Positions 23,901 through 64,000 of a stretch of DNA of 64,000 nucleotides are shown here, in pieces; positions within the stretch are counted from its first letter, which is position 1, and every line of letters begins with the position of its first letter. A program made the position numbers and the translations under genes. Below the pieces are notes generated by a model. It saw nothing but the letters and a program-made list of their open reading frames with translations. It was not told the origin of the DNA and ran no database searches. The stretch is taken from contig JABSPM010000111.1 in the NCBI GenBank assembly GCA_013215095.1, positions 1 to 64,000 of the forward strand. The letters run 5' to 3'. The DNA is from Flavobacteriaceae bacterium. GTDB taxonomy: Bacteria > Bacteroidota > Bacteroidia > Flavobacteriales > Flavobacteriaceae.

Positions 23901-24010
23901 CAACGTTATATAACATCACTCTTAACTCCAAAAAGCCCTTAGTACTTTTGCTAAGATCAAGAGCAGTATGGAAACTAAAACAATTAATAAGAAACTTGAC
24001 GCTAATCAGA
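23901..24010 (+). repeat. Cassette-type repeat R1
   Basis: About 110 bp, first of three related copies. Shared landmarks are an initial CGTT, an ACTCC/ACTCAAAAA block, AAGAGCAGTATGGAAACTAAAA, and a closing AACTTGACGCTA. It contains TACTTTTG at 23943-23950, which fits the -7 promoter consensus; R2 and R3 have lost that match. It lies 131 bp before the ADP-ribosylglycohydrolase gene. Confidence 0.75.
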
Positions 24011-24141
24011 ACCAACAGTGTTATATATGTTCAAGAAGTACATTGCTTCAAATTGACTGAAAATTATTAGATTTACAATGAAAAAGATATAAGGTGTCTA
24101 GAGTTAATACCTTTATACAGTTTTTACACCCAATTTGATAA

Positions 24142-25065
24142 ATGAAAATATCAGAAAGATTTGAAGGATGTATTATCTGTGGCTCGATTGGAGACGCATA
24201 TGGAAGTGCGCATGAGAATCTGACTAAAACTGACTCCAATGATTCGAATACATTTTATTTATTTGGTAAACCTAAAAAGGTAATTCCGAAATGGAAAATT
24301 ACGGATGATACACAACTGACTTTGGCTACTTGCGAAGAAATTATAGAAAATAATGAATTAAAACCTGAAGATTTTGCTCAAAAGTATCTAGATTATTTCA
24401 AGCAGAGAAAAATTACTGGAATAGGTGCAAGTACATTAAAAGCTTTGCAAGAATTAGAAGTTGGAGGACATTGGAGTCAAGTTGATCGAAAAGGAGAATA
24501 TACAGCAGGAAATGGTGCATATGTGAGAATTTACTCTCTTGCATTTGTTCATAATATGACTCGCGAGCAAATTCGAGAAATAAGTATCATAACCCACAAT
24601 AACGATGAAGCATATATTGGCGCATTAAGCATAGTGTTTGCAATACGAGCTATTTTAAATGGGGAATGGACAGGTAAAGAAAACCTAATTGAACTATTAA
24701 TTGACCAAATCCCTGATACAAGATTAAGAGATAGGCTGATTGAAATTAAAAATATTAATAACCTTTTGGAGATTGGACAGAAGGGAAACGATGGATATGT
24801 TGTGAATTCCGTACCCTTGGCAATTGCCGCAGCGAACAAAGTAACTGAAATTGGAATTGATGGAGTATTTGAACAACTTATTGAAATTGGAGGCGATACA
24901 GATACAAATGCTTCGATAGCTGGACAAATAGCTGGAACTTTAATCGGTCGAAAAGGAATTCCTGAAAACCTAATGAGTAAATTGACAGAATTAAATGAAT
25001 TTGACTGGATTGAAAAGACGATAAATAACTATAACAATAAAAAAACTGGGTGTAATACTGTATAA
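24142..25065 (+). CDS. ADP-ribosylglycohydrolase family protein
   Basis: A 307-residue all-helical protein of the DraG/ARH type, which removes ADP-ribose from proteins or nucleic acids using two metal ions. GSIGDAYGSA is at the N-terminus, KITDDTQLT (about 51-59) supplies the first metal ligands, and IGGDTDTNASIAGQIAGTLI (about 251-270) supplies the second set; all the ligand Asp/Thr residues are present. It forms a single-gene module between repeats R1 and R2. No ADP-ribosyltransferase partner (such as DarT) is adjacent. The stop codon is embedded in the TATAAC that begins the post-gene stem segment. Confidence 0.9.
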   Translation: MKISERFEGCIICGSIGDAYGSAHENLTKTDSNDSNTFYLFGKPKKVIPKWKITDDTQLTLATCEEIIENNELKPEDFAQKYLDYFKQRKITGIGASTLKALQELEVGGHWSQVDRKGEYTAGNGAYVRIYSLAFVHNMTREQIREISIITHNNDEAYIGALSIVFAIRAILNGEWTGKENLIELLIDQIPDTRLRDRLIEIKNINNLLEIGQKGNDGYVVNSVPLAIAAANKVTEIGIDGVFEQLIEIGGDTDTNASIAGQIAGTLIGRKGIPENLMSKLTELNEFDWIEKTINNYNNKKTGCNTV

Positions 25066-25115
25066 CAAATCACAGCAGGCTTTGGTATGCTACGCTTGTC
25101 ATACTAAGCGTTGTA
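25061..25115 (+). repeat. Post-gene stem-capable segment (attC-like shape) M1
   Basis: It starts TATAACAAAT and ends AAGCGTTGTA, whose tips pair (TATAAC with GTTGTA, one G-U). The centre is only partly complementary. A similar segment follows the next module at 25932-25983 and shares ATAACAA at its start and ATACTAA-CGTT at its end. Integron attC sites have this shape, but the RYYYAAC/GTTRRRY consensus is not fully met. Confidence 0.4.
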
Positions 25116-25214
25116 AACAATCCCTAATAGAACTCAAAAAATCCTGAATATTTTGGCAAACTTCAAGAGCAATATGGGAACAAAAACATTAATAAAAAAA
25201 CTTGACGCTAGTAA
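25107..25214 (+). repeat. Cassette-type repeat R2
   Basis: Second copy: AGCGTTGTAAACAATCCCTA, then CTTCAAGAGCAATATGGGAA and AAACTTGACGCTAGTAAGAA. The first 25 bp are closest to R3 (AATCCCTAATAGAA is shared) and the end is closest to R1. It lies 20 bp before the COQ4-like gene. Confidence 0.75.
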
Positions 25215-25233
25215 GAAGTAAAAAAGAAAATAA

Positions 25234-25932
25234 ATGAACCTTTTTCAGAAAATTACAAGAAGTATAATCAAGATTTCATTTGGTACTTCCGTTTCAATAA
25301 TTGAATATTTCAGTAAGATGGACAAATATCACCAACAAGTTGACAAATTAAGAAAACTTGAAAGCGTAACTTTAGGAAAAGAAATAGCTAAATGCTTAGA
25401 CAAGTATAAACTAACACTTGTCCCCAAATACGAAAGTCACGACCTCAAACATGTCTTGCTCGATTATAAAATGACAGCAGAAGATGAAATTAGAATGCAA
25501 GCATTTATGATAGGAAATGGTAATTACTAGATACCGTCATTTACAATTTTCTTTTTTGGAGCTATTTTACTCCCTGAACTCTGGTTAACTTTTTATTCTG
25601 ACTTTAAGAGAGGAAGACAAACTATCCCAATCTATAATTGGACAGTTAAAGACGATGCAAGTAAACCAATCAGAGAATTAAGAGCTGAATTGGCTAAACC
25701 AACACCACAAAAAATAACATTAATAAATATGAAAAGATTGACTCAATTCGCTGCAATAGCTGCAGTATTAGCAGGTGTATTTGGAATGCTATTTTGCCTT
25801 CCGTTTTTGTTTTCGTCAAATATAGCCGACTTAATAGGGGCTGGATTCCCATTTGTTGGTGGGGCAATTTTGGTTGTAGGTGGTCTTTTAGCATTATCGA
25901 ACCTAACGAAGGAAAATAATAAAAACCATTAG
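25234..25932 (+). pseudogene. COQ4-like protein gene interrupted by an in-frame TAG
   Basis: One frame of 233 codons is split by TAG at 25528-25530 into 98 and 133 codons with no shift. Just before the stop lies HDLKH followed after 11 residues by Glu, exactly the zinc motif HDxxHx11E of COQ4. Just after the stop the sequence continues in the same frame with FFFGAILLPELWLTFYSDF and FKRGRQTIPIYNW, consistent with the rest of the domain, then a two-helix membrane tail (about residues 175-225). COQ4 proteins help assemble ubiquinone; bacterial relatives of this size have no fixed role. Either a recent nonsense mutation or recoding; a pseudogene is the simpler reading. Confidence 0.75.
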
Positions 25933-25983
25933 ATAACAAGGATTTGTAAAATGAATTAAAACGCATTTATACTAAACGTTACC
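25932..25983 (+). repeat. Post-gene stem-capable segment M2
   Basis: It begins GATAACAAGG directly at the end of the COQ4-like frame and ends TACTAAACGTTACC; tips GATAAC and GTTACC pair with one mismatch. It is the counterpart of the segment at 25061-25115. Confidence 0.35.
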
Positions 25984-26086
25984 TGTAATCCCTAATAGAA
26001 TTCAAAAATTCTTGAGTACTTTTAATAAGATCTAGAGCAGTATGGAAACTAGAAATAGTGATGAAAAACTTGACCTTATTCAGAAT
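25975..26086 (+). repeat. Cassette-type repeat R3
   Basis: Third copy: AACGTTACCTGTAATCCCTA, TCTAGAGCAGTATGGAAACT, ATGAAAAACTTGACCTTATT. It is followed by about 190 bp without a gene, a third CAACGTTATGTTATA string near 26147, and the IS66 remnant, so the module that would follow R3 is missing or replaced. Confidence 0.75.
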
Positions 26087-26278
26087 TTGAAAAAATCGAG
26101 TAAATACTATATTCAGAGTCAATTCAAGAAGAATAGAATTATATACAACGTTATGTTATAAAAAAAGTGACTGAAATTAATGTGTTAATTAGAGTTGATA
26201 AGTCGTATCCCTCCCTCTAACCCATCTTGACGTGTTTTGTACCTGGACTTATTTTTGATTTTTTAAAAATCAGAAATT

Positions 26279-26566
26279 ATGTTAGCTTTAGATAGTAGTT
26301 TTAGATTCGAGTTGTATTTGGGTTCAACGGATATGCGTAAGAGTTTTTATAGTTTATGCGGAATTGTTTCAAGTGACTTATCAGGATTTCCTGCAGACGG
26401 TTCAGTTTATATTTTTGTAAATCGCCTTCATAATAAGATGAAATTATTACAATGGCGCGTAGGAGGTTTTGTTTTGTATTATAAGCGTTTAGAAAAAGGC
26501 ACGTTTGAGCTACCTGTTTACGATAATTCAGTAAAAAATTTGGTTTTAAGTTATACTGAATTATAA
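26279..26566 (+). mobile_element. Truncated IS66 family TnpB (Orf2) remnant
   Basis: A 95-residue product with the IS66 Orf2 signature: STDMRKSFYSLCGIV, SVYIFVNRLHNKMKLLQW and GGFVLYYKRLEKGTFELP. Typical proteins are about 115-120 residues and end in a helical segment missing here, where the frame stops after SYTEL. tnpA and the tnpC transposase are absent on both sides, so this is a dead fragment. It sits at the right edge of the repeat islet. Confidence 0.82.
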
Positions 26567-63486: not shown

Positions 63487-63705
63487 GTGATTTATGAAAC
63501 ATTCTCTACACATAACGTTAAAGCACACCTCTTGATTGATAATCAAAAAAATGATGGCATTCAATTTCAGCCAAATAAGTTGATTCATAACATTATAAAA
63601 GGAATAAGTGAGTCAAAATGGGGTGAAACCTATGGTATTGCTTGGGCAAATATTCAAGAAAAAGCAGCACCTCATATGTTAGAAGTAATCAATTTAGTAA
63701 TTTGA
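63487..63705 (+). CDS. Unrecognised short ORF, possibly a gene fragment
   Basis: A 72-residue frame from GTG at 63487 (VIYETFSTHNVKAHLL to MLEVINLVI). No RBS-like or -7 element is seen, and the start inside AGTG suggests a truncated C-terminal piece rather than a full gene. The composition (ESKWGETYGIAWANIQ) looks protein-like. It sits between two palindromes and directly before the ParD gene. I do not recognise the family. Confidence 0.35.
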   Translation: MIYETFSTHNVKAHLLIDNQKNDGIQFQPNKLIHNIIKGISESKWGETYGIAWANIQEKAAPHMLEVINLVI

Positions 63706-63744
63706 AAAATTTGCTCGATTTCCTACATTTAAAGTAAAAATCAT

Positions 63745-63781
63745 ACAAGGTGTATAAAATTAATAATTTTATACACCTTGT
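63745..63781. terminator. Long perfect inverted repeat, probable terminator
   Basis: ACAAGGTGTATAAAATTA, A, TAATTTTATACACCTTGT: 18 bp arms without mismatch, 40 bp after the short ORF and 89 bp before the parD start. Confidence 0.6.
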
Positions 63782-63820
63782 TAGCTACAAACGATCCAAA
63801 TTAACTCTTCAAACGTTATT

Positions 63821-63850
63821 TTGAATTGATACCAATAGTTGGTATATTTG
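63821..63850 (+). promoter_or_regulatory. parD promoter with overlapping inverted-repeat operator
   Basis: TTG at 63821, 19 bp spacer, TATATTTG at 63843: both Bacteroidota promoter boxes with ideal spacing. Overlapping it is ATACCAA, TAG, TTGGTAT at 63829-63845, a perfect 7-3-7 inverted repeat placed where an autorepressor would bind. The ATG at 63870 is 20 bp downstream. Confidence 0.7.
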
Positions 63851-63869
63851 GATAATATAATTTAGAATT

Positions 63870-64000
63870 ATGGCAAAAAACACATCAATTTTACTAGGTG
63901 ATTATTTTAACAACTTCATTAGTCGACAAATCAAAACAGGAAAATATTCTTCAGCAAGTGAAGTCGTAAGAGCTGCCCTAAGAATGTTCGAACAAGAAGA
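63870..64000 (+). CDS. parD: ParD family antitoxin, N-terminal part
   Basis: The gene runs off the window after 43 codons. MAKNTSILLGDYFNNFISRQ begins a ribbon-helix-helix domain and KYSSASEVVRAALRMFEQEE is its helix-helix part, as in ParD/CopG antitoxins, where the N-terminal domain binds the operator as a dimer. A parE toxin gene is expected just downstream but is outside the window. The promoter and inverted repeat upstream fit autoregulation. Confidence 0.88.
   Translation, partial: MAKNTSILLGDYFNNFISRQIKTGKYSSASEVVRAALRMFEQE

Follow-up and report, generated by a model that had tools for sequence, protein, structure and literature searches.

What do three similar repeats among unrelated genes, all on the plus strand of a flavobacterial contig, represent? 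The DNA analyzed here (the window, 64,000 nt) belongs to contig C15 of a 3.07-Mb draft genome (G000; 118 contigs, 99.77% complete), the sole member of its genus in the genome collection. The three-copy repeat of about 110 bp described in the initial annotation proved real: a repeat search returned three 83-nt copies (starts 23929, 25135 and 26003), the second and third being 77% and 80% identical to the first over 83 bp, and conserved flanks extend the copies to ~110 bp (23904-24012, 25109-25219 and 25977-26088). As had been claimed, an ADP-ribosylglycohydrolase gene and a COQ4-like gene lie between them, but a TAG at 25528-25530 interrupts the reading frame of the latter, and its PF05019 match lies at the cut-off. 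The parts of the array, and of a second site near the end of the window, are as follows.

23905..24009, plus strand: R1, box GTTATATA and repeat unit (unit ~23913-24009); the box is shifted, with GTT 7 nt before the unit
24010..24123, plus strand: leftover sequence from R1 up to the following cassette
24123..25109, plus strand: ADP-ribosylglycohydrolase cassette, with start box TTACACCCA (24124-24132), then AATTTGATAAATG
24142..25065, plus strand: ADP-ribosylglycohydrolase gene, 307 aa (PF03747, 2.5e-44)
25047..25118, plus strand: attC-like site, from R'' TGGGTGTAA (25047-25055) to box GTTGTAAAC (25110-25118)
25119..25215, plus strand: R2 repeat unit
25234..25932, plus strand: COQ4-like gene (PF05019, 6e-5, exactly at the cut-off)
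25925..25986, plus strand: possible attC-like site that precedes R3 and runs to box GTTACCTGT (25978-25986)
25987..26083, plus strand: R3 repeat unit
26145..26161, plus strand: GTT motif ACAACGTTATGTTATAA, which may close the array
63487..63705, plus strand: truncated recombinase N-terminus, 72 aa, GTG start (tblastn: residues 11-50, 37.5%, 5e-5)
63746..63790, plus strand: attI-like palindrome with 17-nt arms, and GTTAGCTACAA

Further copies beside different genes, which the initial annotation had envisaged, were found elsewhere in the genome. A sequence model built from eight copies detected 13 at E of at most 0.01 (10 strong and 3 degenerate, the eight among them) on 11 contigs. A search of genome contigs for the exact repeat pattern returned no stretch. 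One copy follows a Fur-type gene, another lies inside the end of a rhodanese gene, another precedes a lipoprotein gene, and one adjoins tpiA (a gene named by reading the sequence). An old tandem duplication of intergenic DNA would account for three similar copies within 2.2 kb, but ten further copies lie on ten other contigs, each beside other genes. Because the 13 copies are spread over 11 contigs, rather than confined to one locus with the same genes in the same order, we regard tandem duplication as refuted and its probability as next to nil. Under stricter filters the repeat was present in 4 of the 249 genomes of the family: this genome, G050, G137 and G084. The G050 form is longer (~141 bp, 12 matches), and reverse-strand self-matches showed that its greater part is one imperfect palindrome. 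A degenerate palindrome resembling this form, without the AATCCC leader, was seen on contig C91 of the own genome (L057, 9818-9880). The consensus energy was -1.77 kcal/mol with a covariation term of +1.28, and single copies gave z from -2.82 to +1.25; we therefore make no claim that the repeat is a structured RNA. A promoter role was dropped, as no convincing motif was seen by eye.

The cassette organization is clearest in related Flavobacteriaceae, where tandem co-directional cassettes separated by imperfect palindromes were observed. In Tamlana sp. 2_MG-2023 (L133), a cassette array lies downstream of a recombinase gene, and each cassette opens with a GTT box whose reverse complement forms the first bases of the palindrome closing that cassette. 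Among 122 candidate cassettes drawn from 22 loci (two loci yielded none), the own start box was matched exactly (9/9) near the stop codon in 68 and at 8/9 in 7, compared with 0.15% and 3.5%, respectively, for foreign boxes at gene ends; 54 candidate boxes had no exact match, and many of them are probably false boxes. Across 61 named loci, 150 exact 10-nt pairs were found in 292 kb downstream of the recombinase versus 20 in 534 kb upstream, and at least one pair occurred in 39 of these loci, several of which have <1 kb of downstream sequence. A count on the opposite strand reads these pairs in reverse and was discarded as a control. ORFs with a matching pair numbered 38 of 302 downstream and 3 of 736 upstream. 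Consecutive cassettes form a chain of eight in Aequorivita viscosa (L213), and chains also occur in some other loci. The start consensus of the 68 exact cassettes is C-GTT-R-NNNN-Y-AA, with Y at the last box position in 67 and C before GTT in 63, neither of which was imposed. At 129 imperfect-palindrome sites the median spacing from R'' to the next box was 129 nt, and the bottom strand was the more stable in 107, a count that includes chance pairs and was set against shuffles keeping base composition only. The array strand carried the longest ORF in 271 of 299 cassettes, some loci being duplicates and some pairs chance.

GTT[AG] lies within 47-87 nt after the recombinase gene in 22 of 22 loci. 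Because GTT[AG] alone would be expected often, it is the inverted repeat in front of it that carries weight: its arm reached at least 6 in 18 of the 22 loci and at least 9 in 15, whereas 70 of 440 shuffled 48-mers reached arm 6. In position and form, the site next to the recombinase appears attI-like. Identical cassettes occupy non-adjacent places within one array in L185, L191 and L218, Lacinutrix neustonica (L236) has near-identical ones so placed, and Winogradskyella pacifica (L230) and W. psychrotolerans (L237) share a cassette, 97% identical, whose position in the array differs between them. The match between L178 and L233, with identical cassettes at identical places, proves nothing because both are the same record, and it was discounted. 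Judging from the shared and displaced copies, the cassettes of these arrays appear to move. A divergent gene of ~129 aa with paired cysteines lies beside the recombinase in 48 of 61 loci (L133, 4993-5382) and had no NCBIfam or Pfam match.

The recombinase of this system belongs to a tyrosine recombinase family of 376-380 aa. Close copies (E of at most 1e-110) occur in 42 of 249 family genomes, and weaker matches (1e-40), possibly including other recombinases, in 159. Named hosts include Tamlana, Winogradskyella, Psychroserpens, Lacinutrix, Maribacter, Aquimarina, Formosa, Arenibacter and Aequorivita. R235, K260, H324, R327, H350 and Y359 are invariant in 33 sequences, and we presume their catalytic roles from knowledge of the family. 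The recombinase scored 196 bits against TIGR02249 (cut-off 265) and 221.9 bits against NCBIfam NF040815 (cut-off 220). Among solved structures, archaeal Xer proteins (4a8e and 5hxy) are nearest in sequence, followed by IntI4 (2a3v). The IntI4 alignment falls into two stretches, separated by 60 residues in IntI4 and by 17 in the recombinase family; of the IntI-specific region, ~43 residues are missing from the family. The predicted model, with a mean pLDDT of 82, aligned to XerA with Z 22.8 and to IntI4 with Z 20.6 (rmsd 3.9 over 266). Residues 1-100 form an extra N-terminal domain, for which there was no Pfam match and the best Foldseek hit had E 0.075, none being <0.001. Compared alone by VIA, this domain resembled XPB (Z 6.3, rmsd 1.9 over 57) and HARP (Z 4.3, rmsd 1.8 over 48), a predicted likeness that is tied with eIF1-type folds and may serve as a weak lead. 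A classical IntI integron, or a CALIN left by one, would follow the same cassette logic, but no protein in the four repeat-carrying genomes exceeded the TIGR02249 cut-off for IntI; given also the missing region of the recombinase, we consider this origin of the array very unlikely.

Within the window array, the ADP-ribosylglycohydrolase gene is the only cassette still showing the full signature. Start and end complements of 9 nt were found in 3 of 86 window ORFs, two of them A+T-only or A-rich low-complexity words, and this gene is the sole one with non-trivial words (TTATACAGT and TTACACCCA), its box at 24124-24132 being matched at 25047-25055. R1 was tried as the start of this cassette and ruled out by the true box at 24124, so that the cassette begins at ~24123. 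The AATTTGATAAATG after the box is the consensus start; because the first G of its GTT has been changed to T, the cassette may no longer be movable. Judging by position and not by a box match, the remnant at 24010..24123 probably derives from the 3′ portion of an earlier cassette's end. Neither R2 with the COQ4-like gene nor the R3 unit gave a box match, and both look decayed. Neither attC-like site of the window folds more stably than its shuffled versions: the hairpin at 25047..25118, taken alone, is weak (z -1.16), as is that at 25925..25986 (z -0.61), whose R'' mismatches the start box of its cassette. The exact attC-like arm CTTGTTATACNNAACGTT, found in 2 of 149 genomes, was too specific to be of use. 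A fragment of IS66 Orf2 lies directly behind the array, after R3 (26279-26566; PF05717, 2.6e-23).

The initial annotation held that the window contains no integrase; this was overturned by the truncated recombinase N-terminus at 63487-63705. Together with the palindrome that follows it, the segment 63487-63790 resembles a dead integrase with its attI-like site. A ParD/ParE-like pair comes after the recombinase remnant (63487-64000) and runs past the window end. The genome holds ten recombinase fragments, plus two XerC/D-like genes, and its recombinase of the cassette system is broken; the fragments outside the window are on C21, C24, C113, C44, C96, C5, C78, C36 and C12. Further matching cassettes were found on C96, C12 and C78. 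In a plasmid search, every one of the 388 records was <60% identical.

The repeat itself is a gene-less unit of ~97 bp, separate from the recombination site and lodged behind the cassette-start box CGTTRNNNNY-AA and at look-alike chromosomal sites. The earlier view of the repeat as module boundary was not borne out: the boundary is the GTT box with the adjoining attC-like palindrome, and repeat copies also occur alone at ordinary chromosomal sites. The left end is sharp (AATCCC) and preceded by GTT and six variable bases. Of the 25 copies that have a left end, 18 show this GTT exactly at -9 (background 0.018 per position), and in three more (R1, C89 and C33) it starts 7-8 nt ahead of the anchored end. 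The right end, GTTAGTCAG, again presents GTT and six bases before AA, and on G050 contig C27 two copies abut head to tail through this GTT-N6-AA motif. In G050 C22 the insertion is clean (GTTATGTGC[unit]AAGCTGAAAA): the box and R'' match exactly across the repeat and a typical cassette leader follows it, from which we conclude that the unit appears to have been inserted into a cassette behind its box. This is the one case among 15 ORF-followed copies in which the left box matches the gene end exactly. A second copy with matching left box and R'' spans two genes on G050 C1, where a ParD/ParE-like pair sits as one cassette with the repeat (L138, 6652-7409). In the other ORF-followed copies neither box fits, which would not be predicted had the unit simply entered an intact cassette; exchange between repeat copies could explain the mismatched boxes. 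Pieces of group II introns lie upstream of two copies (L052, 4973-5092, and L065, 2-77; RF01999 and RF00029), the L065 piece within 20 nt of the repeat, and group II introns may target the same boxes.

One probable empty site was reconstructed at a split gene pair. A lipoprotein rhodanese gene follows a first rhodanese gene within 400 nt in 25 of 29 relatives in which the first was located. In the own genome the two are apart: a repeat on C44 terminates the first, and the second starts behind another repeat, on C89. When the C44 and C89 flanks were joined, the frame continued to a stop (GEVVHNAN*) and the sequence then reached the second rhodanese gene; therefore, a repeat copy was probably inserted between the two genes at GTTGTACAC^AAT, a junction that is reconstructed and known from no relative. 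The two places would later have been exchanged across two repeat copies, a genome rearrangement between C44 and C89 that split the pair.

Two other accounts of the repeat have to be weighed against this evidence. It could be a conserved 5′ leader or promoter of certain cassettes, spread with them by homologous recombination: in many copies a start codon lies within ~30 nt of the right end with the gene in the same orientation, and on G050 C22 and C1 the repeat is inside a cassette with matching box and R''. However, copies without a following gene stand at gene ends (the Fur, rhodanese and tpiA side), the repeat ends are sharp, and most cassettes have merely a short leader, and we hold this account to be improbable. 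A stronger competitor, to which we give somewhat less than an even chance, leaves the cassettes as described and takes the repeat for an ordinary miniature transposable element, brought to cassette starts by an unrelated enzyme such as a HUH transposase or one of the IS1111-attC type. Both IS1111-attC elements and group IIC-attC introns are known to target attC; the G050 form has an imperfect terminal palindrome; and a genome carries from a few to 13 copies, in just 4 of 249 family genomes. The copies also lie at ordinary sites and were absent at 81 recombinase loci examined, except for two weak partial matches in one locus. On the other hand, no target-site duplication was found at copies read one by one, although some IS families make none, and no autonomous version with a transposase was found beside any copy looked at. 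Also against this account, the right end of the repeat carries the GTT-N6-AA motif of its target, and two copies abut through it.

We consider it likely that the window locus is a degenerate cassette array of a Flavobacteriaceae integron-like system in which the repeats are passengers behind the boxes. The claim of a cassette array can be kept in that unrelated co-directional accessory genes do form a small array, but the repeat has to be given up as holder or mover of the genes. In intact relatives, a XerA-like tyrosine recombinase gene precedes the attI-like site and a run of co-directional cassettes. Each cassette starts with the box CGTTRNNNNY-AA, contains one or two genes and closes with an imperfect palindrome, the initial nine or ten bases of which are reverse-complementary to that box. 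Cassettes would insert at G^TT through recombination of the folded site, in the manner of integrons, because the relation between box and R'' is the trace expected from a circular cassette whose attC site is folded. The three repeats would be copies of the gene-less unit (AATCCC...GTTAGTCAG) inserted immediately 3′ of a box without target duplication; because the right end repeats the GTT-N6-AA pattern, we suppose that the same kind of recombinase exchanges the repeat at the other box edge (Y^AA). The cassette signature, the adjacent recombinase, the target motif of the repeat and one probable empty site are observed; from them we infer the catalysis, the strand, the circular intermediates and the candidate mover of what we take to be a new short mobile unit.

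A bolder reading, which we offer tentatively and think rather unlikely, is a second origin or a re-engineering of integrons. A XerA-type recombinase of Flavobacteriaceae without the IntI helix would grip folded cassette sites by its added N-terminal domain, the predicted fold of which resembles the fork-DNA-binding domains of XPB and SMARCAL1 (HARP). GTT-RNNNNY would then be the overlap of the recombinase core site, with cassettes crossing at the left edge (G^TT of the 8-nt box) and repeats at the right (Y^AA), so that one enzyme would serve two cargos on opposite strands.

Integrons are recognized by IntI, and surveys require the IntI additional domain. No report of a Flavobacteriaceae integron run by a non-IntI recombinase was found in the open-access literature searched. 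Bacteroidota are listed among the phyla with integrons in review passages (PMC8618304), intI is mentioned as reported in the Bacteroidetes/Chlorobi group (in part of PMC2426708), and a passage on IntegronFinder 2.0 gives one complete integron in Bacteroidetes, that of Salinibacter ruber M1. Should the system function in the way its anatomy suggests, a large pool of mobile genes has been overlooked in a major marine group, on the scale of the 42 of 249 family genomes with close recombinase copies. It would also offer a test of how a double-strand recombinase can turn to folded single strands when it lacks the helix acquired by IntI for this purpose (PMC7790495).

Among known systems, the repeat may be compared with the attC-targeting elements (IS1111-attC and group IIC-attC introns) in that it takes one position relative to the cassette site; it differs from them in that no transposase or intron was found in the repeat. 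Archaeal XerA and other Xer recombinases (4a8e and 5hxy) are the closest solved relatives of the recombinase, but the genes described here sit at cassette arrays and encode the extra N-terminal domain. CALINs, attC clusters without integrase, share with the window array that no integrase lies beside it, whereas here a truncated platform remnant lies 37 kb away. In the chromosomal integrons of Treponema, the integrase is co-directional with the cassettes, as here, and some attC sites are given as 115-132 bp (in part of PMC3607928), but these integrons have IntI.

The likeness to integrons at large is extensive. A tyrosine recombinase adjoins the insertion point; the cassettes are co-directional; the imperfect palindromes carry AAC/GTT boxes, with a start box complementary to the R'' at the cassette's own end; the bottom strand may fold better; and cassettes are duplicated and shuffled. 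In contrast to integrons, the recombinase is nearer to XerA than to IntI, has no IntI-specific region and carries ~100 additional N-terminal residues; its gene is co-directional with the cassettes, the box is longer (9-10 nt) and the attI-like site is palindromic. Because the IntI-specific additional domain, the defining feature of integrons, was tested and is absent from this recombinase, we do not class the array as an integron in the strict sense. There is good evidence that the array is integron-like, in a form not defined by IntI, and in its anatomy it appears to work like one.
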